Shown: one piece after another, positions 4,896 through 25,344 of the stretch
How the letters are laid out: each line of letters starts with the position of its first letter
Numbering within the stretch: the stretch's first letter is position 1
Assembly: GCF_010586825.1 (NCBI RefSeq)
Contig: NZ_JAAAGB010000001.1
Coordinates: 744,001 to 808,000, forward strand
Reading direction: 5' to 3'
DNA: 64,000 nucleotides
Source: Draconibacterium mangrovi
GTDB lineage: Bacteria > Bacteroidota > Bacteroidia > Bacteroidales > Prolixibacteraceae
Notes under the pieces: generated by a model
Seen by the model: only the letters and a program-made list of their open reading frames with translations
Databases searched by the model: none
What the model was told of the DNA's origin: nothing
Translations under genes and position numbers: made by a program

Positions 4896-6656
4896 ATGTC
4901 TGTTATGAGAAGAATCAACTTTAAACCTATCCCCCTTTTCATTGGTATTGCGGTATTGTTCGCCGGATGTTCCGGACTAAACAAAATGAAGAAAAATGCC
5001 GATCAAATCAACTTCAAAGTTACTCCTGAGGTACTTGAGGCACATGCCAGTGAAGTTGCCGTTGCAATCGACACACGTTTCCCCGCCAAATACTTCAACA
5101 AAAAAGTTACATTAACTGCTACACCAGTGCTAAAATACGATGGTGGAGAAACTGCGTATGATCCTGTTTCGGTACAGGGCGAAAGCGTTGAAGCCAACAA
5201 CAAAGTAATTAGCTACAACGGTGGTAGTGTAAATTACAAAGATGCTGTTGCCTACGATAAAGCCATGGCAAAATCAGAGCTTTACGTAAACATCAAAGCT
5301 ACGCAAGGTGCAAAATCGGTTGATTTCGAGCCAATAAAAGTTGCCGATGGTATTATTGCTACCAGCGAAAAAGTGATTATGATCCCTAAAGCGATTTTAG
5401 GTGTTGAGCGCGAAGCCAACAACAGCGGAAAATACGACCCGAACATCGATGCTTTCCAGCGTATCGTTCCTGACGAAATGACTGCAGACATCAAATACCT
5501 GATCAATCGCTCAAACATTCGCAGAGACGAAACTTCAAAAAGTGAAGTAACAGCACTGGAAGACTACACTAAAAAAGCGAACGAAGACGAAAGAATCGAT
5601 TTGAAAGATGTTGAGGTTTCAGCTTATGCATCACCTGACGGTACAATCGATCTGAACCTTGATCTTGCTGCAAAACGTAAAGAAACATCTTCGGCATTTT
5701 TGGCTAAAAAATTAAAAGAAGCCGGTATTGATGTTAAGTTGAAAACAAAATACACTCCTGAAGACTGGGACGGTTTTAAAACGTTGTTGGAGCAATCGAA
5801 CATTAAAGACAAAGAACTGATCCTGCGTGTACTTTCGATGTACAACGATCCGGAAGTTCGCGAGCGAGAAATCCGTAATTTAAGTGAAACTTTCGATGAA
5901 GTTGCTGACGAGATTCTGCCTCAGTTGCGTCGTGCCAAAATGACTACCAGCGTTGATATGATTGGTAAAACCGACGAAGAATTAAAAGCAGCTGCCACAG
6001 CTGATCCTTCTTCATTAAATCCGGCTGAGTTGCTGTACACCGCGACTTTGTTCGAAGACCTTAACGAACAACTTTCGGTTTACAATTCGTTTATGGAAGT
6101 TTATCCTAACGACTGGAGAGGACCAAACAACGCAGGTTATGTAATGGTTCAGCAATACAAATATGCCGATGCAAAACCATTGTTTGATAAAGCAGAGAAA
6201 CTGGCCAACAACGAGCCTATCGTTAAAAACAACGTTGGTGCGGTTACTTTAACCGAAGGCGATGTTGACGCTGCTGAAGCTTTATTTGGTGCTGCTGCAG
6301 GTGCAGGCGACGCTGTTAACTACAACATGGGAATTGTTAACGTTAAAAAAGCAGAGTACGACAAAGCTGTTCAGTATTTCAACCGTTTTGCTGATGTAAA
6401 CTCGGGATTGGCAAAATTACTGGCTGGTAACAACAACGGTGCGGTTAAAGATCTTGACGCTTGTACAATTGAAGGTTGTTATATGACTGAATATTTCAAA
6501 GCTGTAATTGGTGCCCGCACTGCTAAAGAATCGTTATTGTTCGACAGCCTGAAAGCTGCTGTTGACATGAATGCCGGTTTAAAAGAAGTAGCTAAAACAG
6601 ATATGGAATTCGCAAAATATTTCGACAATGCTAAATTTAAAGCTATCGTTGACTAA
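4896..6656 (+). CDS. Outer-membrane TPR lipoprotein
   Basis: The 586-residue protein has a lipoprotein signal (FAGCSG, Cys near residue 25). A beta-rich N-terminal region (about 40-190) with regularly spaced polar strands follows. A middle region (SAYASPDGTIDLNLDLAAKR) resembles the peptidoglycan-associated OmpA-like fold, as in related Bacteroidota lipoproteins. The C-terminal part (about 365-586) consists of tetratricopeptide-like helical repeats (ELLYTATLFEDLNEQ, NNAGYVMVQQYKYADAKP, YNMGIVNVKKAEYDKAVQ). It probably acts at the cell envelope as a structural or scaffold protein. Single gene with its own promoter candidate and terminator. The exact role is not known to me. Confidence 0.8.
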   Translation: MSVMRRINFKPIPLFIGIAVLFAGCSGLNKMKKNADQINFKVTPEVLEAHASEVAVAIDTRFPAKYFNKKVTLTATPVLKYDGGETAYDPVSVQGESVEANNKVISYNGGSVNYKDAVAYDKAMAKSELYVNIKATQGAKSVDFEPIKVADGIIATSEKVIMIPKAILGVEREANNSGKYDPNIDAFQRIVPDEMTADIKYLINRSNIRRDETSKSEVTALEDYTKKANEDERIDLKDVEVSAYASPDGTIDLNLDLAAKRKETSSAFLAKKLKEAGIDVKLKTKYTPEDWDGFKTLLEQSNIKDKELILRVLSMYNDPEVREREIRNLSETFDEVADEILPQLRRAKMTTSVDMIGKTDEELKAAATADPSSLNPAELLYTATLFEDLNEQLSVYNSFMEVYPNDWRGPNNAGYVMVQQYKYADAKPLFDKAEKLANNEPIVKNNVGAVTLTEGDVDAAEALFGAAAGAGDAVNYNMGIVNVKKAEYDKAVQYFNRFADVNSGLAKLLAGNNNGAVKDLDACTIEGCYMTEYFKAVIGARTAKESLLFDSLKAAVDMNAGLKEVAKTDMEFAKYFDNAKFKAIVD

Positions 6657-13820: not shown

Positions 13821-15404
13821 ATGAAGGAGACAAATGGCATATTAAAAGTTCCGGAGGAATCGTTCGTACGCAATAAAATGCGTAAGGCTGCTGCAGCTAT
13901 GCTCGGAATGTTGGAGCTGCGTCCTCCAGTAAATATCCAGAAACTGGAAGAACTGGCCGCTGATTTGGTGCGCGAGCAGGAAATTTCAGCTGAATTTATT
14001 CCTTTTGCAATGGTATTGCTGGGCAACGAATCGTGGCGAAAAACGGTAAAAGCCACGCCCATGAACCGCCGGCTTTTACTGTTGCCGCAATGCCTGAACG
14101 ACAACAATAAATGCGAGGGCCTGTTCGACGAACTGGGGCTGAATTGTGCAGGATGTAAGGCCTGCCCCATCGATGATCTGTTGATAGAAGCAGAATCAAA
14201 AGGATATGCCAATCTGGTGGCCGAAGGAACCACGGTTGCGGTTGGTTTGGTTGAAGAAGGATCGATAGATGCTGTAATCGGCGTGAGTTGTATGCCGGTG
14301 TTACAACGGTCGTTTGAGCCGGTATCAAATGCTGCCGTTCCGGTAATTGGCATCCCGCTGCTTTTCGATGGTTGTGAAGAGACCCGTGCAGATATAAAAT
14401 GGATTCTGGATGAAATGCGTTCTTATGAGCCGGATGAAGCGCACCAACCCATTTCGGTATCGTTGTTAAAGAACCGGATCGAAGCTTTTTTTACAAAAGA
14501 AAACATCGAAAAATACATTCCGGGTCGCGATAAAACTGAACAAATTGCACAGGAATACCTGCTTGTAGATGGGCAACGGATACGACCGCTACTTGCGGCT
14601 TTAAGTTACCAGGCCTACTCAACTACTGATACCGATGAGCTTCTGCAGCCCTTAACGCTTATTATTGAGTGTTTTCATAAGGCGTCGCTAATTCACGACG
14701 ATATTGAGGACAATGCCAACCAGCGTTACAACACGCTTACGGCGCATGAAAAATATGGTGTTGCGCAGGCCATCAATGCAGGTGATTTTCTGATTGGCAA
14801 AGGCTACGAGTTGTTGAGCGATCTGGCTATTTCGAATGAAACCATGAGAAACTGCCTGCGTTTTATTGCCCACTCGCACATACAATTAACACGCGGACAA
14901 GGCGTCGACATTCTTTTCAATGACGGCAAAATCCAATTGCTGCCCGATGAGATGATCGAGGTTTTTAAAAATAAAACCGGTGAAGCCATAAAAGTGGCCT
15001 TGTTGCTGGGAGCAATTGTTGGAGGAGCAAACAAACAGGAACAGGAAATTCTGGAACAATTTGCCGATTATATGGGAATTGCCTATCAAATTCGCGACGA
15101 CCTGAATGAATATACGGAACAACACGCTGCCGAAAAAACCGGCGATTATCCCTTCCTGCTGGCCTTGCTGAATAAACATTTTGCCGATCAGGGAAAAGAG
15201 ACGCCAGCGAATTTATTCGGGCAAGTTGGTGAATTCAGAAAGTTGATTGATGAAACCGGATTGCAAGCAGCTGCAAAAAAATACTTGCAACAATACATCG
15301 ATAACTGTTACGCAGAGCTGGATAAACTGGATAATTCCAAACTTCGTCTGAGCCTTTACGGCGTGATGGGAAAAATCTTCAAATCAGAAACGACCAATGA
15401 GTAA
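13821..15404 (+). CDS. DUF116 - polyprenyl synthetase fusion protein
   Basis: I take the ATG at 13821 (527 residues), two bases after the radical SAM stop, rather than an upstream in-frame start inside that gene. Residues about 80-195 match DUF116: LLLLPQCLN, then C98, C109, C112 and C115 (CAGCKAC), AVIGVSC (C157) and DGC (C185), so a likely metal or FeS site. Residues about 225-520 are a trans-isoprenyl diphosphate synthase: GQRIRPLL, first Asp-rich motif LIHDDIED (D293-D297), GDFLIGKGYE, GEAIKVALLLGA and a second motif YQIRDDLNEY, which lacks the final Asp of DDxxD. It would build a prenyl diphosphate for the cyclase genes downstream. The fusion is unusual. Confidence 0.88.
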   Translation: MKETNGILKVPEESFVRNKMRKAAAAMLGMLELRPPVNIQKLEELAADLVREQEISAEFIPFAMVLLGNESWRKTVKATPMNRRLLLLPQCLNDNNKCEGLFDELGLNCAGCKACPIDDLLIEAESKGYANLVAEGTTVAVGLVEEGSIDAVIGVSCMPVLQRSFEPVSNAAVPVIGIPLLFDGCEETRADIKWILDEMRSYEPDEAHQPISVSLLKNRIEAFFTKENIEKYIPGRDKTEQIAQEYLLVDGQRIRPLLAALSYQAYSTTDTDELLQPLTLIIECFHKASLIHDDIEDNANQRYNTLTAHEKYGVAQAINAGDFLIGKGYELLSDLAISNETMRNCLRFIAHSHIQLTRGQGVDILFNDGKIQLLPDEMIEVFKNKTGEAIKVALLLGAIVGGANKQEQEILEQFADYMGIAYQIRDDLNEYTEQHAAEKTGDYPFLLALLNKHFADQGKETPANLFGQVGEFRKLIDETGLQAAAKKYLQQYIDNCYAELDKLDNSKLRLSLYGVMGKIFKSETTNE

Positions 15405-16260
15405 ACCAAAGAAAATCGCGATCTATAAAAAACTGGTTCGGCGACTTTCTTTAGGATTTGAAACTTTATCGCCCGAAATACAACAGGAAATAACTGATTT
15501 TATAAAAAGTCAGCAACATACTTCGGGTGGCTTTTGCGATCGTGCCGGAAATCCCGATCCTTATTACTCGCTCTTCGGCTGCTGGCTAAGTTTAGGCACC
15601 GGACAAGACAAAGAAATTGAGCTATTAAAAACATACATATCAAAACAACCTGAGACATCAAGTACCGTTGAAGAACTGGCGCTAAACCTGATGAAAACAG
15701 AGTTGTTGCCGCAACAAAAAAACGAATCAGTATTTTCCTTATTTAGGAAAGTTTTTTCGGGGCACAACTTTATGGATATTTCTTACCGCTTTTTTCTGCT
15801 GGCCTTAACCATTGATGCCACTGCAAAAAGCCGCTTTCTTTTTAACCTGATGGCACATATTTGGCTGCCCTTTTATAAAGTGAAAGAAAACTCGCCATGC
15901 AGTTTGGTGGCGGCACTTTGTTTCGCCCGTTATGTTTTAGGGTTAGGCTACAAAAAATTCCAACAACTTTTATTGGAATTTCACCAGGAAGAAGCTGGAT
16001 TCAGGGCTTTTGAAACCACACCATTTAGCGACACGCTATCAACCGGAGTAGCACTTTTTTCTCTGGCCGAAACCAATTACGACCTGCGCCTGATCACTCC
16101 CGATTGTCTTGATTTTATTCAAATGAATTATCTTTCAGGAGCCTTTCTTTCCGGCGATGGTGATGAAACCCGCGATTTGGAATATACGTTTTACGGGCTG
16201 CTGGCACTGGGAAGCCTTTTAAAGGATGAATGGGAAGGAAGAAGGATTAAAGTTGAATGA
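15397..16260 (+). CDS. Small alpha/alpha-toroid protein of the prenyltransferase/terpene-cyclase fold
   Basis: 287 residues, starting 8 bp before the stop of the polyprenyl synthetase gene. The beginning (FIKSQQHTSGGFCDRAG followed by YYSLFGCWLSL) resembles a prenyltransferase/squalene-oxidase (PFTB) repeat. Similar Gly/aromatic repeats recur (EAGFRAFETTPFSDTLSTG, DLEYTFYGLLALGSL). No DXDD motif is present. It could be a partner domain of the large cyclase encoded downstream, a divergent class I/II cyclase half, or a prenyl-binding protein. Separated from the cyclase gene by 104 bp of noncoding sequence. Function is inferred from fold and context only. Confidence 0.75.
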   Translation: MSKPKKIAIYKKLVRRLSLGFETLSPEIQQEITDFIKSQQHTSGGFCDRAGNPDPYYSLFGCWLSLGTGQDKEIELLKTYISKQPETSSTVEELALNLMKTELLPQQKNESVFSLFRKVFSGHNFMDISYRFFLLALTIDATAKSRFLFNLMAHIWLPFYKVKENSPCSLVAALCFARYVLGLGYKKFQQLLLEFHQEEAGFRAFETTPFSDTLSTGVALFSLAETNYDLRLITPDCLDFIQMNYLSGAFLSGDGDETRDLEYTFYGLLALGSLLKDEWEGRRIKVE

Positions 16261-16364
16261 AGAATTTAGATTAACGATTTTTGATTTTAGAAGGAATTGA
16301 CAAAATACAATAGGCAAAATTCTAATGTTACCAATGTGCCTAATGTGGTTTAAAAAGGAAGAAA

Positions 16365-18215
16365 TTGAAAAAAGAAGAGTTGGAAATAAGGTTTAAGGAA
16401 CTGAGCGACATTTTGCTCGGTGAACTTAACGATGATGGCTTTTGGTCTGGAGAACTATCATCGAGTGCGCTTGGGGTAGCAGTAGCTGTTGCAGCGCTCC
16501 ATTTCCACGATGCCAGTCTTCATCAACAGGAAATTACAAAAGGCCTGAAATGGCTTTCTTCAAATCAGAATACAGACGGTGGTTATGGCGACACGCCTGA
16601 AAGTCCGGCAAATATTTCAACTTCTTTACTTTCTTATGCGGCGTTGAATTTATATGCTGAAAAGAATTCGGAGGTAAAGACAACACAGCAAAAACTGGCT
16701 GACTACCTTAAAACGCAGAATGTTGATGTCCGTTCAGACCAGGTCGCAAAAGTAATTCTTGATCATTACCAAAAAGATTATACGTTCTCGGTGCCGATTT
16801 TAACCTTGTGCGCACTTTGTGGTATTCCCGGAGACGATGGTTTTAAACACATTCCGCAGTTGCCTTTCGAGCTGGCTTTGCTGCCACGCCGGTTTTATCG
16901 TTTGCTGAATCTGAGCGTAGTGAGTTATGCAATCCCGGCACTGATTGCCGTTGGGATTGTGGTTTCCCGTAAGAAAAAATCGAATGGATTAACTCGTGCC
17001 ATCCGGGCAAAAGCGGAGACGAAAGCCCTTAAAATTCTGGAACGATCGCTACCCGAAAGCGGCGGCTTCCTGGAAGCTATTCCACTCACCGCATTTGTTG
17101 CCTTAAGCCTAATAAATGCAGGATTAAGAGATTCGATTGTTGTAGACAAAGGAATTGCTTTTTTAAAACGTACGCAACGCGAAGATGGCAGCTGGCCAAT
17201 TGACATCGACCTCTCGACGTGGGTGACCACCTTAAGTGTAAAAGCACTGGGTGAACGAAAAAACGAGGTACTGTCAGTAACTCAACAAAAGCGTATTGTT
17301 AATCACTTGCTTTCAGTGCAAAATAAAACAGTACATCCGTTTAACGGCACTTCGCCGGGTGGCTGGGGCTGGACAAATTACACGGGATCGGTACCCGACT
17401 GCGACGATACACCCGGAGCGATTCTGGCACTTTTAGACTTAGCGCCTCAACATACAATCAGAGAAGAAATATTAATGGGCGGCGAATGGCTGCTAAAACT
17501 TCAAAATAACGATGGTGGCTTCCCCACATTTTCACGGGGCTGGGGAAAATTACCTTTCGACCAGAGTTGTGCCGATTTAACCGGGCATTGTCTTTTAGCG
17601 CTTGCAAAACTTGTAGATGTATATAAATCAGAGCTGAATTCAAAACAGAAAAAACTGTATTCTACAGCAATAAAAAAGGCTGTCGATTATCTGGACAAAC
17701 ACCAAAAAGAAAACGGTTCGTGGTTACCACTTTGGTTTGGTAACCAGCACACCCAAAATCATAAAAACCCGGTGTACGGAACTGCGCGGGTACTCACCTA
17801 TTTTCAGAAAGCAAAATTGTTATTGAAAGATGAGCCGGTTTTAACTGAAAGAATTCAGAAAATGATTGCTGGAGGAACTAACTTCCTGCAGAAAGTTCAG
17901 AATGAAAATGGCAGCTGGGGAGGCGATTTTGGGATTAAAGGTTCGATTGAAGAAACAGCGCTTGCTGTTGCAGCTTTGAAGGAGACAAAATCGGAAACTG
18001 AGATTGAAAGAGGCTTAGCGTGGCTCGACGATTATTACAAAAAAAAGGGGCTTAAAAAAGCCCCAATCGGATTGTATTTTGCATCGTTATGGTACGATGA
18101 AAAATTATATCCTTTAACAGCTTATCTTGAAGCTGTTAAAGGATATATCGATAAAAATCAAATCTGGGTTCCCTCCTTTTGTACAAGGGTTCCGTCTTCC
18201 ATAATTACATCGTAG
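16365..18215 (+). CDS. Squalene-hopene-cyclase-like class II terpene cyclase
   Basis: 616 residues from a TTG start preceded by AAGGAAG; no better ATG is in frame nearby. The protein is a double alpha-barrel of the squalene-hopene cyclase family. The proton-donor motif is VPDCDDTPG (Asp345, Asp347, Asp348), equivalent to DXDDT, preceded by GGWGWTNY. QW-type repeats are visible: QREDGSWPID, LQNNDGGFPTF, KENGSWLPLW, QNENGSWGGD. The C-terminal IGLYFASLWYDEKLYPL is family-like. A hydrophobic segment (about 183-200) may mediate membrane association. Substrate is probably a linear polyprenyl or squalene-type chain, but the product cannot be predicted. The last 58 bp overlap the convergent lipoprotein gene, and a hairpin lies inside the coding sequence. 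Confidence 0.88.
   Translation: MKKEELEIRFKELSDILLGELNDDGFWSGELSSSALGVAVAVAALHFHDASLHQQEITKGLKWLSSNQNTDGGYGDTPESPANISTSLLSYAALNLYAEKNSEVKTTQQKLADYLKTQNVDVRSDQVAKVILDHYQKDYTFSVPILTLCALCGIPGDDGFKHIPQLPFELALLPRRFYRLLNLSVVSYAIPALIAVGIVVSRKKKSNGLTRAIRAKAETKALKILERSLPESGGFLEAIPLTAFVALSLINAGLRDSIVVDKGIAFLKRTQREDGSWPIDIDLSTWVTTLSVKALGERKNEVLSVTQQKRIVNHLLSVQNKTVHPFNGTSPGGWGWTNYTGSVPDCDDTPGAILALLDLAPQHTIREEILMGGEWLLKLQNNDGGFPTFSRGWGKLPFDQSCADLTGHCLLALAKLVDVYKSELNSKQKKLYSTAIKKAVDYLDKHQKENGSWLPLWFGNQHTQNHKNPVYGTARVLTYFQKAKLLLKDEPVLTERIQKMIAGGTNFLQKVQNENGSWGGDFGIKGSIEETALAVAALKETKSETEIERGLAWLDDYYKKKGLKKAPIGLYFASLWYDEKLYPLTAYLEAVKGYIDKNQIWVPSFCTRVPSSIITS
18111..18142 (-). terminator. Terminator of the cytochrome operon embedded in the cyclase coding sequence
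   Basis: A perfect 12-bp stem (CCTTTAACAGCT with AGCTGTTAAAGG) encloses an 8-base loop. Read on the minus strand it lies 16 bases after the stop of the OB-fold lipoprotein gene and is followed by ATATAATTTTTC. It is within codons for LYPLTAYLEAVKG of the cyclase. Confidence 0.7.
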
Positions 18216-18901
18216 AAATAGCCTGCGCCAAAATCTTTTTCCAGCGTTAGTTTGCCTTTAAAAGTAACCACGTCGCCAACTTTAACATCGGCTTGTGTTG
18301 TAATTGTCAGATCGAAATTACCACCGGCACCGGTACCATCCTGAATGTGCACCCAGTTTTTACCCATCACCTGTTCGTTCACTTTTACCACAGCCCCTTT
18401 AATTTCAAATTCTTTGCTGCTGTAATCGTCTTTATTGGCAAAAACATCGGCAATACTCAAGTCTCCTTCTTCTTTCTCGATTTCAACTTCGGCATCGCTA
18501 ACAGCCACTTTTCCCTGATGCGACTGAGGCATAGCACTACCCATGGCAGGCTGCTCAGTTCCGGGTGTTTTGGTTATTTTATTCACGAAGTAAATTACAT
18601 CAAAGGTTCTATCGATCTCTTTACTGTGGAAATTTTCCATTGGCAGGGCATCGTAGTAATATAAAACTTCGCCCGGATTCACCTCTTGTTTCGCTACTGC
18701 GATCCACTTTGCAATACCATTTTCAGTTGCACTAATGTAGGTGTAACTTCCTCCCTGAATCACTTCTGAAACCTTAATCATATTGAATGCACTCTCACTC
18801 TGAGCCGGAGCCGAAGCGCCATTTTTATTTCGTACACACGATAAAAACATACCGGCAACGGCCAGTATTATCAAAATCTTAGTCATCTTCATCCTCATCA
18901 T
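18158..18901 (-). CDS. OB-fold lipoprotein, last gene of the cytochrome operon
   Basis: 247 residues with a lipoprotein signal (MFLSC, Cys near 21); the true start may be the first ATG or one of the next in-frame ones. Two parts follow: a domain with SGGSYTYISATENGIAKWI-like strands (about 40-110), similar to GW/NrfJ-like small beta modules in cytochrome-associated proteins, and an OB-fold (about 155-245) with KGAVVKVNEQVMGKNWVHIQ and FKGKLTLEKDFGAGYFYD. It sits 14 bp after the beta-barrel gene. Probably a periplasmic or outer-membrane accessory protein of the cytochrome complex. No heme-binding motif. Confidence 0.7.
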   Translation of the reverse strand: MMRMKMTKILIILAVAGMFLSCVRNKNGASAPAQSESAFNMIKVSEVIQGGSYTYISATENGIAKWIAVAKQEVNPGEVLYYYDALPMENFHSKEIDRTFDVIYFVNKITKTPGTEQPAMGSAMPQSHQGKVAVSDAEVEIEKEEGDLSIADVFANKDDYSSKEFEIKGAVVKVNEQVMGKNWVHIQDGTGAGGNFDLTITTQADVKVGDVVTFKGKLTLEKDFGAGYFYDVIMEDGTLVQKEGTQI

Positions 18902-18914
18902 TCTTTTTATTGTT

Positions 18915-20531
18915 TTAAAATTTAATTCTCAAGTTAAGGTACAACCTGTTAAACAACTGTTGATCCTGAAATGTTGCCTCGTAATTGGCCGACAAATACA
19001 GTTTTTTACTGAATTGCCACGACAAATCAAGCTCGCCAATGTGCTGCTGCAAATTAGTTAAAGTATTTACATATTGAAAATCTACCCAACGATAATGTAG
19101 CATTGTATATAATTTTCCTGAAACAAGATCTTTTGATAAACGTGCACCATAAACCTGCCCGTCGAGATAGCTGGTTTGCATCAAATTGGCGGTAATACTC
19201 AACGATGCATTCAGGGCCGGAACTTTTGTCCAGGTTGCAAAACCATTTAATGTTTTTGTTGGTCGCGGATCTTCGTCACGGAATCGTGTTCCGGCACTGG
19301 CACCAACAATAAAGCCTTTTACAGGTTGGTAGTTAATTCTGGCGCCTACTCCTTGCCGGCTTGCCTGTTGCAAAATTTCGTCGGCATAATTCCGGAAGGT
19401 TTCGTAGTAAATCACATTCTTCCGATTGTCGTACGAACCAAAAACCGCAAGTCGCTTTGAAAAACGATAACGTGCTGAAAAATACAGGCCGGTTAAACTC
19501 ACGGTGTTTGTGGGCTTTTCATTTTCCACCTTATACAAATCGAGTTCCATCGAAGAAAACAAGGTTAGATTTTTAATGGCCGAATTGGTGTGCTGCATGT
19601 AAACAAACCGGCGGTCGACATTCCCCGAATTTCGCTGTTCGAAAAAAGCCAGCGACGACTGCACAAAACCATTGGCCGTTTTTTGGCTCTGCCCAACGTA
19701 AGCGCCGTATTCAAACAGATCAAAATTGTAGCCGTAATCCTGGTGATCGGGACGCGAACCGCCAACAATTCCGGCAAACATATTTTTAAATTTATATTCG
19801 AACTGTACTCCGTCAATGGCTCCAACATTTGCAATGCGTGGATTTATTTTTCGCCCGGCCCAAACAGATGCCGATTCATTAATATCGTATTTCAGCGCCA
19901 AACTGTATACTTTCAAGGCATTGTTCAGATTCTCCTGCACCACCTCCCACTGATTTAGTTTATGCGTAAAAGACACATACGTTTCAGCAGATATATTTGA
20001 TCCTGACAGATGCGAAGCTTTTGCCGATAAAGTATACCGAAAGCGGTGAATATTATCCGCTTCATCAGAAATATTGGAGTAAGAAGACAGGGACAATCTG
20101 CCGTTTATATCCTGTGTTCTCGTCGGTTCTTTTGTCGGTTCCTGCGAAATTAATACCTGTTCATTCACATCCTTATCAGGCAAATCCTGTTGCGGTTGCA
20201 CAACTTCACGAACCGGCTTATTTGTTCTGCCAAAAACAATATCGTCGACCTTAAACGTATGTTCTCCCAAAACAGAGCATAAACATGAAATAGAAGATTT
20301 ATTATCGACAAGTAAGGCCGGCGTCAGGCCGTTTTTATCCCGAATAAACAAGGTATCACCATTTTCAATCTGATCGGTGGAGGCAAATCGCACATAAATA
20401 TTTTCTCCGGTAATGTACGATACTTTCCCATTGAGAAGTTCCCCGGATTCTTGCGCATTCACGGCCATTGTTCCCCAAAACAAAAGAAACAATCCGAATA
20501 AGCTGATATTTGGTTTTCGTATCTTAATCAT
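18915..20531 (-). CDS. Outer-membrane beta-barrel protein of the cytochrome operon
   Basis: I choose the ATG at 20531 (538 residues), which overlaps the upstream cytochrome stop by 8 bp (ATGATTAA). A signal peptide (LFGLFLLFWGTMAVNAQ) is followed by a small beta domain (about 25-95, GKVSYITGENIYVRFAST), a Pro/Glu-rich linker (about 100-130), and a long series of alternating amphipathic strands to the C-terminus, ending in Phe (LNLRIKF), typical of outer-membrane barrels. Located beside two multiheme cytochromes it is a candidate porin sheath for moving electrons across the outer membrane, analogous to MtrB or OmbB, though no sequence similarity to these is evident to me. Confidence 0.75.
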   Translation of the reverse strand: MIKIRKPNISLFGLFLLFWGTMAVNAQESGELLNGKVSYITGENIYVRFASTDQIENGDTLFIRDKNGLTPALLVDNKSSISCLCSVLGEHTFKVDDIVFGRTNKPVREVVQPQQDLPDKDVNEQVLISQEPTKEPTRTQDINGRLSLSSYSNISDEADNIHRFRYTLSAKASHLSGSNISAETYVSFTHKLNQWEVVQENLNNALKVYSLALKYDINESASVWAGRKINPRIANVGAIDGVQFEYKFKNMFAGIVGGSRPDHQDYGYNFDLFEYGAYVGQSQKTANGFVQSSLAFFEQRNSGNVDRRFVYMQHTNSAIKNLTLFSSMELDLYKVENEKPTNTVSLTGLYFSARYRFSKRLAVFGSYDNRKNVIYYETFRNYADEILQQASRQGVGARINYQPVKGFIVGASAGTRFRDEDPRPTKTLNGFATWTKVPALNASLSITANLMQTSYLDGQVYGARLSKDLVSGKLYTMLHYRWVDFQYVNTLTNLQQHIGELDLSWQFSKKLYLSANYEATFQDQQLFNRLYLNLRIKF

Positions 20532-21555
20532 CTTCTGCATTACCTCTTGGGTGACAATCGAAACAACTTGTTGGCGTATATACGTAATCATTTACATCTC
20601 TATGGCGACTGTCCGTTTCGGTTTGATTGTGTTCGTGACAATCGGTACAGCTAAACAGTGAGTAGCTATTCTGCTGCGTGTGGCAATCAAAACAATTGTT
20701 CCATTCGCCGCGGTGCCTGCCCGAATAAATGGGGAAATAGTAGTCATCATGAACAGTAAACTGTGCAGGACTCCATCCCGGATCGGTTGTATGACAGTCG
20801 GTACACTGCGTTGAGAAACCGCTGTTTTGGTGCGATGGATTTGTTGCCGAAGTAAAATCAGTTTCATGGCAACTAAAACAATCGGTTGAAACAGGCTCAA
20901 AAACTCCTGAGGTATGACATTCGGTACAGCTGCTTATGGCATGTCCTTTTGTTAGTGGGAAAAAATCGTGATTAATACCTTGTGCCGACCACAAGAATGC
21001 GTCAATCCGATGGCATTCGAAACAGTCGGTCGAGAATCCGGACTCAATATGATTGGGCTCTGTAGTTGCATAATAATCCTGGCTGTGACAATCGATACAT
21101 TCTACTCCCAGAGGCTGAAACTCCAACAATGAAGCGCTTGTATGACAGTCCGAACAATCGGCGGTGTTGTGAGCTCCCAGCAGCGCGAAACGACTGGTTT
21201 GATGAATTTCGGTAATGTTACTTACCAGCCAGGAGCGCGAATCGTGACAGCGCCTGCAATCGAGGCCAACCGTGTTGTTGTGCATGTCGTTGTGACAATC
21301 AATACAATTCGTTTTTGCATCGTTAAAAACCAGGGTTGTGTGGCACGCTCTGCAATCGGTAAAAGCATGCTGCCCGTCAAGCGTAAAATCGGTTGAATCA
21401 TGCGAGAAACCTGCTGTTACTTTCGCGAAAATCCAGCCTTCGGTTGTGTGGCAGTCGAGGCAATCAATTGACAGGTCCTTACCATGGGGATTTTCCTGTG
21501 CCCTCAGTTGAAAGACCAAAAACAACACTACAATTATTAATGACAACTTGCGCAT
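20524..21555 (-). CDS. 13-heme c-type cytochrome
   Basis: 343 residues with a signal peptide (MRKLSLIIVVLFLVFQLRAQ). I count 13 CxxCH heme-binding motifs from CLDCH near residue 32 to CFDCH near the C-terminus, spread over the entire mature chain, with extra His residues between them as sixth ligands. It is therefore a multiheme electron carrier in the periplasm or at the outer membrane. The start overlaps the upstream 20-heme gene by 19 bp, and the end overlaps the barrel gene. The motif spacing and phrases such as HxSGFSTxCxxCH repeat internally, pointing to growth by duplication. No named family recognised beyond multiheme cytochrome c. Confidence 0.9.
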   Translation of the reverse strand: MRKLSLIIVVLFLVFQLRAQENPHGKDLSIDCLDCHTTEGWIFAKVTAGFSHDSTDFTLDGQHAFTDCRACHTTLVFNDAKTNCIDCHNDMHNNTVGLDCRRCHDSRSWLVSNITEIHQTSRFALLGAHNTADCSDCHTSASLLEFQPLGVECIDCHSQDYYATTEPNHIESGFSTDCFECHRIDAFLWSAQGINHDFFPLTKGHAISSCTECHTSGVFEPVSTDCFSCHETDFTSATNPSHQNSGFSTQCTDCHTTDPGWSPAQFTVHDDYYFPIYSGRHRGEWNNCFDCHTQQNSYSLFSCTDCHEHNQTETDSRHRDVNDYVYTPTSCFDCHPRGNAEDD

Positions 21556-23132
21556 GTTATATCTTCAAATTTATAAACGATGTAATTCCGGATTAAATTA
21601 TCGGTGGGTTTATGGCAGGCAATACACTCCAGCCCCTCATGTTTTCCATCGATTTTAAACCGTGCATTATCATGATTGAATTTTTCGGGCAACCAGTTGT
21701 TAAACGTGTGGCACCCCTCGCAATCATTTTTCCCAGATTCCTCAAACTGCCCAAAATGAATATCGTCATGGCAGTTCGCACAGTCAGCCGCGAGTCCTGC
21801 AAACTTTTGCCTGGCAACTCCGGCAGTTTCGTTAAAGTGGCAATCGCGACATGATGCCGCTGTATGTTTACCTTCGAGATTAAATTTCGTTTTGCTATGA
21901 TCAAAGTCGATCTGGCTCCAGATCGTTTCGTTATGACACACACGACAATCGGAATCAGGCATAAATTTACTGCTGATTTTATCATCATGAATATTTTTGT
22001 GACAAGCAATGCAATTGATTTCTTCGAACTTAAAATTCCATTCTTCACCTTTTTTATGGCATTCGAAACACGGAGTTGCCCCGTGGGCACCGACCAAGGC
22101 AAATTCAGTGTTCTTATGCCGCTCAAGGCCAAAAGAAGAAGGCGAAAATCCATTAACAGAGTGACAGGAATTACAATCGGGTGAAACCCTTTTTTTTGCC
22201 AACTGACCTTTATGAAAATCGCTGTGGCAATCGGTACAATTAGTATGCGGTACTGCTTTAGTGTAATTACCCGAGGCGTGACATTCTTTACAATCTACCG
22301 CAACATGTTTGCCCCGCAATGGATAGTCGGTATTGTTGTGGTTAAAAGCGCCAATGTTCTTCACCTGCGTGAAAGAAAATTCATCGTGACATTTACGACA
22401 GTCGTTACCAAATTTATTGTTGTGCACATCCTTATGGCAGCTGGTACAGTTTGCAAACTGAACACCTGCAAACTGTTGAAAGGCCTTGCCATTCATTGTC
22501 TTTTTTTCGTGACATCGAGAACAATCAACTTCCCTGTGTTTCCCAACCAATGGGAATTTAGTTGCTGCGTGATCAAAACCGGTAGCCGGAACAAAAGCCT
22601 CCTGGTTGTGACAATCCGTACAATTCTGCGACAAAGTATTCTGGTGAACATCGGTATGGCAATCGATACATTCCGTGCCCATTCCGAGGAAGGTACCGGC
22701 CGATTTTTTCTGCAAAATATTGTTTTTAATTAATGAAGCTTTATGACAATCGATACAGGTTATTTCAGCATGTTTTGCTTCCAGTTTAAAACCCGTTAGG
22801 TCGTGATTGAAATTATCTTGATTCATCCGAATCATCTTAAAATTTCGACCATAATGTTCGCCGTGACATGCTGCACATCGTTGCCCTGTAACTTCCGCCG
22901 ATGCATGATAACCTTTCTTCTGGTCTATCAGCATCTTTATTTCGGTATGACAAGCCAAACATTTTGCCGAGGTTTCCTTCTCTCCCAAAACATGGCACTT
23001 TGTACAGTTTGTTAAACCTTCCAAATGGGCATGTGCATCAGACAATTCTCCCGGCGATAACTGGGCAAAAGATTTTACCGCAATAAAAAATACTGCCAAA
23101 AGAAATCCGATATGTTTACCAAATATTTTCAA
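21537..23132 (-). CDS. 20-heme c-type cytochrome
   Basis: 531 residues with a signal peptide (GFLLAVFFIAVKSFAQ). I count 20 CxxCH motifs, from CTKCH to the very last residues CASCH, where the protein ends immediately after the final heme His. The N-terminal region resembles c3-type modules (CHTEIKMLIDQKKGYH). A repeated unit FDHxxTxFxLxGKHxxxxCxxCH occurs at least five times. It should be a long conductive chain. Operon position: directly downstream of the FeS/FAD oxidoreductase (4 bp gap), upstream of the 13-heme protein with a 19-bp overlap. Heme maturation genes are not in the window. Confidence 0.92.
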   Translation of the reverse strand: MKIFGKHIGFLLAVFFIAVKSFAQLSPGELSDAHAHLEGLTNCTKCHVLGEKETSAKCLACHTEIKMLIDQKKGYHASAEVTGQRCAACHGEHYGRNFKMIRMNQDNFNHDLTGFKLEAKHAEITCIDCHKASLIKNNILQKKSAGTFLGMGTECIDCHTDVHQNTLSQNCTDCHNQEAFVPATGFDHAATKFPLVGKHREVDCSRCHEKKTMNGKAFQQFAGVQFANCTSCHKDVHNNKFGNDCRKCHDEFSFTQVKNIGAFNHNNTDYPLRGKHVAVDCKECHASGNYTKAVPHTNCTDCHSDFHKGQLAKKRVSPDCNSCHSVNGFSPSSFGLERHKNTEFALVGAHGATPCFECHKKGEEWNFKFEEINCIACHKNIHDDKISSKFMPDSDCRVCHNETIWSQIDFDHSKTKFNLEGKHTAASCRDCHFNETAGVARQKFAGLAADCANCHDDIHFGQFEESGKNDCEGCHTFNNWLPEKFNHDNARFKIDGKHEGLECIACHKPTDNLIRNYIVYKFEDITCASCH

Positions 23133-23136
23133 GTTT

Positions 23137-24471
23137 CTAAGCGTGATTTAATATTGCTTCGCCAAATTTTGTGGTTATTTCAATTCCTGCGTTTCGTAAA
23201 AGCTCGGTGGGCAATTCGCCTCCTGCAAAAATGTATACCAGGTTATTTTCAATTACCAACTCCTCTTGCTGATCTGCAATTTTCAAGCGCACACACTCTT
23301 CTTCAATCGCACTTACGTTTGAGTTCAATATCACATCCAAAAGCTTTGATTCAATGGCTTCGTCAAGTTTTTTCCGGTTTTTCGGTTTTAGGCGCGAAAA
23401 AGTTTCCTTCCGGTACGAAAGGGTAACTTCATTTCCGGTAGCCAGCAACAGGGCTGATTCAATTGCCGAATCGCCACCGCCAACAACCAATATTTTATTG
23501 CCCGAAATAAGCTCAGGTTCCAGCAATCGGTAAGCAACTTTTGGCAAATCTTCACCGGGAACATTTAACTTTCGTGGCGTGCCACGCCGGCCAATGGCCA
23601 GCAAAACGCGCTGCGAGGTGTACTGTTCGCCGTTGTTACATTCCACACAAAATCCCTGCTCGGTTTTAGATATCTTATTAACCTTTTGTTTTTCACTGAT
23701 TTTAATCTCGTTCTTCGACAAAACTTCGTTCCACAAATCCAGCAACTCGGGCTTGCTGGTTTCGTACAGTTTTACTTTTCCATATAACGGCAAATCCATT
23801 GGCGAGGTCATTACAATTTTCGCCCGCGGAAAAGTGTACACAGTTCCGCCCAGCGTATCCTGCTCCAACGTAACTGTTTTTAACTTCAAGCGTTTTGCTT
23901 CAAGTGTAGCAGAAATTCCTGCAGGACCGGCTCCAATCACAATCAAATCGTATTCAGTACCACTTCCCGTTTTTATTCCTTTTGCAAGGTTTTGAACAGC
24001 CTGCCGTCCCTGCTCCACCGCATTTCGGATCAATCCCATTCCGCCCATTTCGCCGGCAATGAACATTCCTTTTACGTTGGTTTCAAATGTTTGATTAACA
24101 TGTGGCAGATCAACACCCCGCTTTTCGGTTCCGATAAAAAGTGAAATGGCCTGTGTTGGACAGGCATGAAAACATGCGCCGTGTCCCACACACTGGCTGG
24201 CATTTATAACGGTTGCTTTTCCATTCCGAATGCCAAGAATATCATGTTCGGGGCAGGCACGAATACAGGCTCCACTCTGGATGCATGAATTTACATCAAC
24301 CACCGGATGTAAGGAAACCGGCTCATGCAATCCATCTTCTTTTGCCCTTTGTATCTTCTCTTCAACAATTTTCGATTCACGTCGCAATTTTCGGATATAG
24401 ATGAAAACCACCCCAAGAAGAAATAGTACTACCGCACCGTAAATCAATATTTGTTCAAGCAAGTTTTCCAT
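23137..24471 (-). CDS. Membrane-anchored FeS / FAD-NAD(P)H oxidoreductase
   Basis: 444 residues. A transmembrane helix (about 9-27) is followed by a dicluster ferredoxin-like domain (about 55-110) and a thioredoxin-reductase-like two-Rossmann module (about 173-440). FAD motif GAGPAG (180-185); NAD(P) motif VVGGGDSAIE. Both cluster motifs deviate from the norm: C63-x5-C69-x3-C73-P and C94-x5-C100-x3-C104-P, with Ser66 and His97 in place of the second Cys. A segment FETNVKGMFIAGEMGG (about 129-144), normally found at the C-terminus of FAD domains, here precedes the FAD motif. It likely oxidises NAD(P)H or a ferredoxin and passes electrons to the b-type protein or the cytochromes. Confidence 0.85.
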   Translation of the reverse strand: MENLLEQILIYGAVVLFLLGVVFIYIRKLRRESKIVEEKIQRAKEDGLHEPVSLHPVVDVNSCIQSGACIRACPEHDILGIRNGKATVINASQCVGHGACFHACPTQAISLFIGTEKRGVDLPHVNQTFETNVKGMFIAGEMGGMGLIRNAVEQGRQAVQNLAKGIKTGSGTEYDLIVIGAGPAGISATLEAKRLKLKTVTLEQDTLGGTVYTFPRAKIVMTSPMDLPLYGKVKLYETSKPELLDLWNEVLSKNEIKISEKQKVNKISKTEQGFCVECNNGEQYTSQRVLLAIGRRGTPRKLNVPGEDLPKVAYRLLEPELISGNKILVVGGGDSAIESALLLATGNEVTLSYRKETFSRLKPKNRKKLDEAIESKLLDVILNSNVSAIEEECVRLKIADQQEELVIENNLVYIFAGGELPTELLRNAGIEITTKFGEAILNHA

Positions 24472-24474
24472 AGT

Positions 24475-25344
24475 TCAAAAAATCCAGGTGTAACCAAACA
24501 GCAAAGCCACAACAATATGAACCAGCATAATCACCAGCATAATTAAGGCAAACGGAAGGTGTGCCACGTGCCAGTAACGCATTAATTGTTGCATGGTTGA
24601 AAGCCACGCAATCCGACGGTTCATAATAATCTTCGATTTCAATATTTTTATTGCCTTGCGATAATTTTTTCCCTTAAAGCCTTTCTCTTTCAGTTCTTTT
24701 CTCAAGTCGGCAATTAGGGAGCGCTCAAATCGGAACCGATTTACAAGGCGCTTTACATAGTTACCATCCTCGCGGTACGATTGTGTTTTTGATGCTGCGT
24801 TTACTTTCTGCAGACCTGCCGAAAGTGCTTCATTCCCCTCGCTGAACTGTGCCCAAAGTTCGGTTTCCATTTTATTCAGCTCAATTAGACTCATTTCACG
24901 TCCTTCAATAGTGCGCGGTATTTGCAAATAGATAACCCGGCCAATCACGCCACTGATTACTACGGCCACCATACTCCAAAAACTTACGGCAACAATACCT
25001 CCGAATTTAAATGAGGTGTGAAACAGAACCATAATCGGCCCCAGTGTACATAAAAAAATGTGGAATTCGAGCCAGTATTTTAACACTCCCAGCCGCGACA
25101 GAAACCTGAATCGTTTACGCGCCATATAGCCAAAAACGCCAACTACCATTAACGTAGCTCCTATAATTCCGAGTCCGTGCCCGATTAAACCGGTTGGTCT
25201 CAACAAAGCATCTTGTTCATGAAAATGTCGTTCACCGATATCTGCCAAATAATAATCAGCTCCGTAAACAACTAGAAAGACAAATACAAAAATTGTAATT
25301 GATACTAACAATAGTAAATACAACGAATGCCAATGCCGTCCCAT
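24475..25344 (-). CDS. Membrane b-type cytochrome-like protein, first gene of the cytochrome operon
   Basis: 289 residues with about five membrane helices (near 7-29, 54-72, 92-108, 117-136 and 262-285). Histidines lie in membrane contexts expected for two b hemes: GHGLGIIG, EFHIFLC, LFHTSF, RYWHVAH and LVHIVV. Between helices 4 and 5 is a long basic cytoplasmic loop (about 140-250). Gap to the next gene 3 bp. It probably transfers electrons between the oxidoreductase or quinone pool and the periplasmic cytochromes. Heme content is inferred from His spacing; I do not recognise the exact family. Confidence 0.75.
   Translation of the reverse strand: MGRHWHSLYLLLLVSITIFVFVFLVVYGADYYLADIGERHFHEQDALLRPTGLIGHGLGIIGATLMVVGVFGYMARKRFRFLSRLGVLKYWLEFHIFLCTLGPIMVLFHTSFKFGGIVAVSFWSMVAVVISGVIGRVIYLQIPRTIEGREMSLIELNKMETELWAQFSEGNEALSAGLQKVNAASKTQSYREDGNYVKRLVNRFRFERSLIADLRKELKEKGFKGKNYRKAIKILKSKIIMNRRIAWLSTMQQLMRYWHVAHLPFALIMLVIMLVHIVVALLFGYTWIF

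Follow-up and report, generated by a model that had tools for sequence, protein, structure and literature searches.

Whether the products of a single operon could carry electrons from NAD(P)H to the outside of a Bacteroidota cell is the question raised by six co-directional genes of Draconibacterium mangrovi, located on the minus strand at 18158..25344 of a 64,000-nucleotide stretch of contig NZ_JAAAGB010000001.1 (positions 744,001 to 808,000; the whole stretch is hereafter called the window). The original prediction, made from the letters and open reading frames alone, described such a route and likened its layout to the MtrCAB and OmbB-OmaB-OmcB conduits. Analysis of the six genes and of their relatives makes it reasonably probable that the operon encodes an electron conduit of the porin-cytochrome kind across the whole envelope. 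Two multiheme cytochromes (MHC) would be combined in it: MHC1, with a nearly constant heme number, and MHC2, whose heme number ranges from 10 to 88 among relatives and changes by whole triheme modules.

Organization of the operon

Open reading frames and sequence place the six genes at the positions and in the order first described, coordinates, strand and motif counts having been checked:

g1, 24475-25344, minus strand: 289 residues, putative inner-membrane di-heme b-type cytochrome
g2, 23137-24471, minus strand: 444 residues; N-terminal membrane helix, two ferredoxin-like motifs, then a FAD/NAD(P)H oxidoreductase domain (YpdA/thioredoxin-reductase-like)
g3 (MHC1), 21537-23132, minus strand: 531 residues, TTG start, 20 CxxCH motifs, c7-like cytochrome
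g4 (MHC2), 20524-21555, minus strand: 343 residues, 13 CxxCH motifs in triheme units; length-variable in relatives
g5, 18915-20591, minus strand: 558 residues as listed; predicted outer-membrane beta-barrel
g6, 18158-18901, minus strand: 247-residue lipoprotein; GW-like, then OB-fold-like domain
g3/g4 overlap, 21537-21555, minus strand: 19 bases
terminator-like hairpin, 18106-18147, minus strand: directly 3' of g6; 18-pair stem and T-rich tail

The tight packing foreseen at the outset is found, with gaps of 3 (g1-g2), 4 (g2-g3) and 13 bases (g5-g6) and two overlapping pairs. MHC1 and MHC2 genes share 19 bases, and g4 and g5 share 68 with the listed g5 start or 8 with an internal ATG at 20531, which by eye is the likelier start. 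Hairpins of the terminator-like class number 10 in the area, not above shuffles (mean 8.1, standard deviation 3.0).

Two triheme-repeat cytochromes, one rigid and one elastic

Recounting confirmed 20 + 13 = 33 CxxCH motifs, far above 2000 residue shuffles, which contained on average 0.22 (MHC1) and 0.15 (MHC2) and at most 3. Heme packing is dense, about 26 residues per heme as calculated from protein lengths and motif counts, and about 25-29 in the MHC2 of relatives. Both proteins match the Pfam family Cytochrome_C7 (2.4e-26 for MHC1, 2.7e-12 for MHC2); the top solved profile matches were 3ov0_A (2.4e-8), which we take to be GSU1996 of Geobacter, for MHC1, and the sixteen-heme cytochrome 1z1n (2.6e-4) for MHC2. 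Their signal peptides appear by eye to be of the ordinary type. In an alignment of 31 rows (30 of the 39 twenty-heme MHC1 proteins plus the window, 23-heme proteins being left out), 40 histidines are kept in at least 90% of rows, 20 within heme motifs and 20 elsewhere; the MHC2 alignment of 17 rows (16 of the 17 proteins with 13 or 16 hemes plus the window) keeps 27, of which 13 are in motifs and 14 elsewhere. The near-identical locus L025 (loci of the comparison carry L numbers) was excluded from these alignments and from those of the barrel and g6. The additional conserved histidines would be enough to supply the second ligand of each heme, which fits bis-histidine ligation throughout both proteins.

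The two genes are also interlocked. In the window, the ATG of MHC2 sits one base before the first cysteine codon of the last CxxCH of MHC1, so that one stretch of bases specifies both the final heme site of MHC1 and the opening residues of MHC2. The same offset recurs in 74 of 97 gene pairs, drawn from overlapping sets and with the MHC2 start taken mechanically as the first start codon. This overlap, a further new feature, suggests translational coupling, and the shared bases may account for the MRxLS with which MHC2 commonly begins.

Changes in heme number were mapped by Fitch parsimony on a midpoint-rooted FastTree phylogeny of g1 covering 78 loci (loci with a cut MHC2, with N in MHC2, with fewer than 16 hemes in the first MHC or with identical g1 were excluded). 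At least 58 changes were obtained for MHC2 and at least 6 for MHC1, which carries 20 hemes in 59 of these loci, 23 in 16, 19 in two and 16 in L047, where the gene order is swapped; off the tree, 17 hemes are found in L094 and 16 in L125.

The heme number of MHC2 is, moreover, quantized. Among uncut second cytochromes, 81 of 85 have 3n+1 hemes (48/51 in a first set and 33/34 in a second, the two overlapping a little). The exceptions are L037, whose gene contains a run of N and hence gives 23 and 12; L047 and L050, with swapped gene order, in which the 23-heme MHC1 is counted second; and L117, whose MHC1 is split 5+14. In L096, 39 hemes are found in a third-position gene that is frameshifted, its tail being out of frame by eye. 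A real departure is seen in L144, L145 and L147, which possess a separate third cytochrome with 9 hemes (3n) before the barrel. Two trivial origins of the rule were considered and rejected: a counting artefact, since strict CxxCH and loose C-x(2-4)-CH patterns differ in only two proteins of the first set, and shared ancestry, in view of the 58 or more changes on the tree. L059 and L098 need CxxxCH to obey the rule, their strict counts of 21 and 27 breaking it. All 14 counted genomes of at most 10 contigs (L018, L023, L024, L105-L108, L118, L121, L122, L125, L128, L130 and L133) obey it, with 13, 22, 28, 34, 37, 40, 43 or 46 hemes.

The repeating unit of MHC2 has about 75 residues and three hemes, and units inside one protein reach 91-100% identity in some cases; longer periods, spanning two to five units, can also be seen. 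Within the genus of the window, MHC2 has 13 (window, L025, L105), 28 (L107), 40 (L106, L108) or 52 hemes (L026), and the barrels of the same genus are 78-97% identical to g5. As read from these repeats, the heme number of MHC2 evolves by gain and loss of whole triheme modules. A rigid MHC1 next to an elastic MHC2 is what would be expected if MHC1 spanned a fixed gap, the periplasm, and MHC2 did not. Scaled from the ~100 Å quoted for decaheme MtrA (PMC5566968), the 20 hemes of MHC1 would extend over about 200 Å, an estimate by analogy and not a measurement.

A predicted 22-stranded barrel and an optional lipoprotein

The outer-membrane barrel assigned to g5 was borne out by an AlphaFold2 model built on 36 sequences (35 of the 39 uncut barrels plus the window), with a mean predicted local distance difference test score (pLDDT) of 80.6 and a predicted template-modeling score (pTM) of 0.61. 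Counted from the listed elements, the model has 22 strands between residues 161 and 557, preceded by a small N-terminal beta domain (52-122). Foldseek returned 1016 PDB matches at E ≤10, 280 of them at E ≤0.001, and the best 50 of the 1016 were porins, pilus ushers, AlgE and similar proteins, at low TM-scores. Among the 36 members no consistent Pfam family was found, stray matches occurring each in 1-2 of them, and g5 is by its sequences a dedicated family without consistent Pfam assignment.

The six-gene operon first described needs one correction, g6 not belonging to its core: the core is g1-g5, and g6 lies directly 3' of only 15 of the 39 uncut barrels (tblastn, E ≤1e-3), which makes it, as judged from its occurrence, a dispensable, optional accessory partner. 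Its description as an OB-fold lipoprotein stands for the lipoprotein part, the lipobox cysteine (Cys22) being invariant in 13/13 aligned sequences (12 of 13 plus the window). The OB-fold is weaker: at E ≤0.5, tRNA_anti-like (OB-fold) domains appear in 4/13 and weak GW domains in 10/13, and none of them in the window copy.

The inner-membrane pair

No Pfam or NCBIfam family matched g1 above cut-off, and its assignment as a b-type membrane cytochrome is supported by conserved residues. Across the window and seven aligned sequences, W91, H95, H109, S131, G132, G135, W258, H262 and H276 are invariant (8/8). They form two W-x3-H-x13-H motifs (W91/H95/H109 and W258/H262/H276), each with one H-x13-H pair, and a single SGxxG (S131-G132-xx-G135). 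He et al. (2017, PMC5566968) interpreted the motif histidines in the inner-membrane proteins of the putative porin-cytochrome clusters PCC3 and PCC4 as coordinating two b hemes. A simple hydropathy scan yields merged hydrophobic stretches at 4-36, 52-76, 111-143 and 257-289. A helix near residues 91-110 falls under its threshold.

The second gene agrees with its description as an iron-sulfur/FAD oxidoreductase through its Pfam matches (Pyr_redox_3, 1.5e-44; Fer4_10, 1.6e-9), and its top NCBIfam model is YpdA (TIGR04018, 1.1e-48, under its cut-off). A hydrophobic stretch at 3-30 is followed by IRKLRR, which by the positive-inside rule makes the soluble domain probably cytoplasmic. Motifs were counted in 98 g2 proteins, window included, from two overlapping sets (cut open reading frames and matches weaker than 1e-60 excluded; few members come from a second arrangement in which a g2-like open reading frame follows the barrel). 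Both ferredoxin motifs (residues 63-104) keep three cysteines; at the second cysteine position, motif I (residue 66) has Ser in 73/98, Thr in 23/98 and Cys in 2/98, and motif II (residue 97) has His in 98/98. Because only three cysteines remain per motif, the clusters are probably atypically ligated, with His and Ser/Thr ligation as a possible solution. Cys275 and Cys278, which form a CxxC, are not conserved in these proteins, which argues against a disulfide reductase. A membrane-anchored flavoprotein of the NAD(P)H type with atypical ferredoxin motifs, as g2 appears from its sequence, is a new feature. In L106, of the same genus, g2 is found in two overlapping frames (5244-6574; 132 + 350 residues), owing to a frameshift or a sequencing error.

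Distribution of the operon

The operon is not peculiar to this genome, and its being an oddity of one genome is rejected by the 479 g1 relatives found in named genomes. Within an evenly drawn sample of 392 genomes of the phylum, own genome included, g1 found a match in 47, below 1e-60 in 41; the barrel found one at E ≤0.001 in 38, and comparison of the two tables places g1 and barrel on one contig in 34 of the 41. In 41 close genomes, again with the own one, the barrel is present in 19.

Gene order was evaluated on the best 80 of the 479 relatives. Carriers among them include Draconibacterium, Maribellus, Mariniphaga, Mangrovibacterium, Labilibaculum, Saprospiraceae, Ignavibacteria and others, the closest named one being Draconibacterium sediminis (L025; g1 98% identical). 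A search for the same order in other Bacteroidota had been suggested with the original prediction. Among the 75 loci that leave room for g2, 74 have it after g1, and the order g2-g3-g4(+)-g5 after g1, unlabeled open reading frames being ignored, is kept in 43 of the 44 loci reaching g5.

Some loci depart from this picture. In L125 and L126, of one single-contig genome, g1 lies ~10 kb from g2-g5, with other genes between, and MHC1 has 16 hemes. In L021 (3666-5361), from a fragmented genome, g1 stops after 133 residues and is followed by the barrel, g2-g4 being missing by deletion or misassembly. Plasmid pEMTOL02 of Emticicia oligotrophica (L111) carries the order ccsA-g1-g2-23 hemes-40 hemes-barrel-'GW dipeptide' lipoprotein. 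On this plasmid, the operon with its CcsA heme-lyase gene stands near a ParA-family gene, and pEMTOL02 is a possible vehicle of operon transfer.

Proposed electron route and alternatives

The sequences themselves establish the genes, their heme-motif counts, the conserved histidines, the conserved order and the gain and loss of modules, and modeling predicts the barrel. On these grounds NAD(P)H would be oxidized in the cytoplasm by the flavin and iron-sulfur centers of g2, and electrons would cross the inner membrane via the two b hemes of g1, run along the nearly fixed-length 20-heme periplasmic wire MHC1 and enter a second triheme-module wire, MHC2, which the 22-strand barrel g5 would hold. 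The final acceptor would lie outside the outer membrane, g6 being accessory. The donor NAD(P)H, the direction, the insertion of MHC2 in the barrel and the extracellular delivery are what we infer in this scheme.

Several observations weigh against such a conduit or parts of it. Conduit function is here attributed to these proteins from sequence and model, and g1 could exchange electrons with quinone instead of g2. Nor is g2 always beside g1: in a second arrangement, counted in 40 stretches from 39 genomes, a g2-like open reading frame follows the barrel in 11. Surface exposure is left unproven by the cytochromes, lipobox-like sequences occurring in only 3/102 MHC1 and 1/100 MHC2, and the wire shape of MHC2 is unsupported by structure, its AlphaFold2 prediction having failed (pLDDT 53). 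As regards the barrel, no MtrB-named entry appears among the best 50 of the 1016 Foldseek matches, and by sequence g5 has no significant PDB match (best E 0.15). MHC1 is imperfectly rigid, single loci having 16, 17 or 19 hemes (L125, L094, L116, L130), and collapse of near-identical repeats in short-read assemblies can falsify module counts, with errors that would also keep 3n+1; such collapse, or expansion, could have altered some counts from metagenome-assembled genomes, and collapse could lie behind the rule there. Finally, Emticicia is an aerobe, so that anaerobic metal respiration is not the universal role of the operon.

A bolder form of the proposal, which we regard as possible at best and rather unlikely in its entirety, sees MHC2 as a length-tunable, covalently continuous heme wire that would pass through the 22-strand barrel and project from the surface, with 10-88 hemes depending on species. 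NAD(P)H would feed it directly, bypassing the quinone pool. Whole triheme modules, gained or lost, would quickly reset its length in evolution, and the width of the periplasm would keep the periplasmic wire close to one length.

The alternative that survives best, unlikely as we consider it, is a conduit fed by quinol, in which g1 would oxidize menaquinol and g2 would act not as the donor but as a side enzyme such as a regulator or thiol reductase. The 11 of 40 stretches with the g2-like frame behind the barrel would agree with it, and He et al. (PMC5566968) suggested that the inner-membrane protein of PCC3 may be quinone-active. Nonetheless, g2 comes after g1 almost wherever a locus leaves room for it, hand-over to g1 would suit a protein with its membrane anchor and ferredoxin part, and the unconserved CxxC is contrary to a disulfide reductase.

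The same conduit run in reverse, from an external donor such as Fe(II), Mn(II) or a partner cell to quinone or NAD(P)+, seems quite improbable to us, c7-type bis-histidine wires being usually low-potential; moreover, passing electrons from Fe(II) to NAD(P)+ via b hemes would need an energy input for which no supplier is seen in the operon, although the presence of the operon on a plasmid of the aerobe Emticicia would speak for this direction. So would the case of PCC3, proposed in iron oxidizers and modeled as oxidizing an external donor (PMC5566968).

Charge storage within the periplasm only, the barrel being an unrelated porin, is very doubtful: GSU1996, built of triheme repeats, is periplasmic and a proposed capacitor (PMC10138318), charge storage has been named for large MHCs (PMC7399161) and a variable heme number could tune capacity, but the barrel, of a dedicated family, follows the cytochromes in 43 of the 44 loci reaching it, and storage would give no reason for one of two cytochromes being rigid.

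Genomic surroundings

The host genome (5.9 Mb, 27 contigs, 100% complete) contains two CcsA-type heme-lyase genes, which speaks for the proposed conduit. A second multiheme cluster lies on its contig 22 (L163, 3441-16917) and combines, with names given by eye, a CcsA-type heme lyase and a series of cytochromes (4, 6, 19, 7, 1 and 6 CxxCH) with a small membrane protein that is b-type-like and what may be a regulator. Convergent with the operon, two plus-strand genes (window 15397-18215) encode proteins that by eye resemble repeat proteins of the terpene-cyclase/prenyltransferase type, and the gene of the 616-residue one shares 58 bases with the end of g6.

Significance

Metal reduction is reported in Bacteroidota without a known route; for the Mn(IV) reducer Labilibaculum manganireducens, the responsible genes were left open by the authors describing it (PMC5760507). 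Two other Labilibaculum genomes carry the operon (L058, L081). If the conduit proposed here is true, roughly a tenth of the genomes sampled from the phylum (41/392 by g1, 38/392 by barrel), cultured genera included, would have one. The pairing of a rigid with an elastic wire in the same operon would also make heme number a natural experiment: MHC2 varies fourfold in length between close relatives of one genus, which would allow a direct test of how current or reach depends on that length.

Comparison with known systems

The layout proved porin-cytochrome-like, as originally predicted, in its parts, their order and the predicted barrel, but the closest published one is neither of the two systems then named: it is the proteobacterial PCC3 (PMC5566968). 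As described there, PCC3 has an inner-membrane protein of ~300 residues with two W-x3-H-x13-H motifs and one SGxxG, all shared by g1 (289 residues), and five transmembrane helices, the motifs lying on helices 3, 4 and 5. Its smaller, periplasmic MHC has a median of 21 hemes (MHC1 20; relatives mostly 20 or 23) and its larger, repeat-rich MHC a median of 34 and up to 85 (MHC2 of relatives 10-88). The median of 26 residues per heme equals the ~26 found here, and a porin is present in both clusters. In these motifs and in the cytochrome pair of the relatives, the operon agrees with PCC3 as described. PCC3 differs in its hosts (Alpha-, Beta- and Gammaproteobacteria, against Bacteroidota here), in porins that are mostly predicted to have more strands (as many as 42) than the 22 of g5, in a published core that lists no NAD(P)H oxidoreductase, in its larger MHC being called extracellular, whereas an MHC lipobox is here almost always absent, and in the order of sizes, the second cytochrome of the window (13 hemes) being smaller than the first (20). 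Since a PCC3 protein is quoted with 63 hemes, the 3n+1 rule is not general in PCC3. Plasmids of the Pseudomonadota Methylophaga and Sphingobium carry distant relatives of g1, with hhalign probabilities of 98.7 and 94.2, respectively, against single-sequence targets. These were rejected as PCC3 because they sit beside 7- and 10-heme cytochromes, respectively, in different contexts, and the barrel candidate of Sphingobium fails to match g5.

The S13 cluster of Burkholderiales (PMC7399161) resembles the operon in that its porin comes after a pair of large MHCs, with 24 and 49 hemes. In the larger of the pair, domains with CxxCH have apparently been gained or lost, as in MHC2. The S13 cluster differs in being proteobacterial, in its OmbB-like porin and in that the section on the cluster gives no heme-number rule.

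MtrCAB likewise uses a barrel and multiheme cytochromes as an outer-membrane route; on the contrary, the near absence of a lipobox in MHC1 and MHC2 means that no surface lipoprotein like MtrC or OmcB is seen here. Membership of the MtrA/DmsE family is rejected, MHC1 reaching 50 bits against a cut-off of 192.2 for TIGR03508 and MHC2 being unlisted at E ≤0.1, and no entry named MtrA or MtrB stands among the listed structure and PDB matches of g5, MHC1 and MHC2. MHC1 does, however, pass the Pfam cut-off of the model of MtrC/MtrF domain II/IV (PF22113, 36.8 against 30 bits), below which MHC2 stays (24.4). The porins of OmbB-OmaB-OmcB conduits are quoted with 18-22 predicted strands, a range that includes the g5 model, and OmbB-kind porins occur in Ignavibacterium (PMC4245776). 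OmbB-like clusters are also reported in Ignavibacteria (PMC7399161), which carry the present operon as well (L084, L091). By description, the contrast lies in two triheme-module wires and a flavoprotein, with no surface lipoprotein cytochrome seen.

MHC1 and MHC2 share repeats of triheme c7-like units with proteins of the GSU1996 type. GSU1996 is periplasmic and has 12 hemes as four units (PMC10138318), whereas the operon has mostly 20 or 23 hemes in one protein and 3n+1 (10-88) in the other, beside a barrel. The Bacteroidetes_1 cluster for extracellular electron transfer also comes from Bacteroidota and combines multiheme cytochromes with one predicted barrel, in an anode-enriched member and with hypothetical-only matches; as described, it differs in gene content, with six of its seven genes annotated as multiheme cytochromes (PMC8258643). 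Two findings had been named at the outset as speaking against a conduit, high similarity to a known periplasmic respiratory complex and lack of barrel structure in a predicted model, and neither appeared. The g5 model is a good barrel, and identity with a known complex (nitrite, tetrathionate or the Hmc of sulfate respiration) is rejected, the models remaining far below their cut-offs (for MHC1, NrfH 16.6 against 134.2 bits and octaheme tetrathionate reductase 16.3 against 375).

In a survey of MHC clusters no Bacteroidota system was seen named in the text consulted (PMC11475568), and no description of the operon, of the 3n+1 rule or of the rigid/elastic contrast was found in the literature searched, most subscription journals and all bioRxiv preprints lying outside it. 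What is new is a Bacteroidota-wide form of the porin-cytochrome-like layout, with a probable flavoprotein feed and a quantized, fast-evolving second wire.

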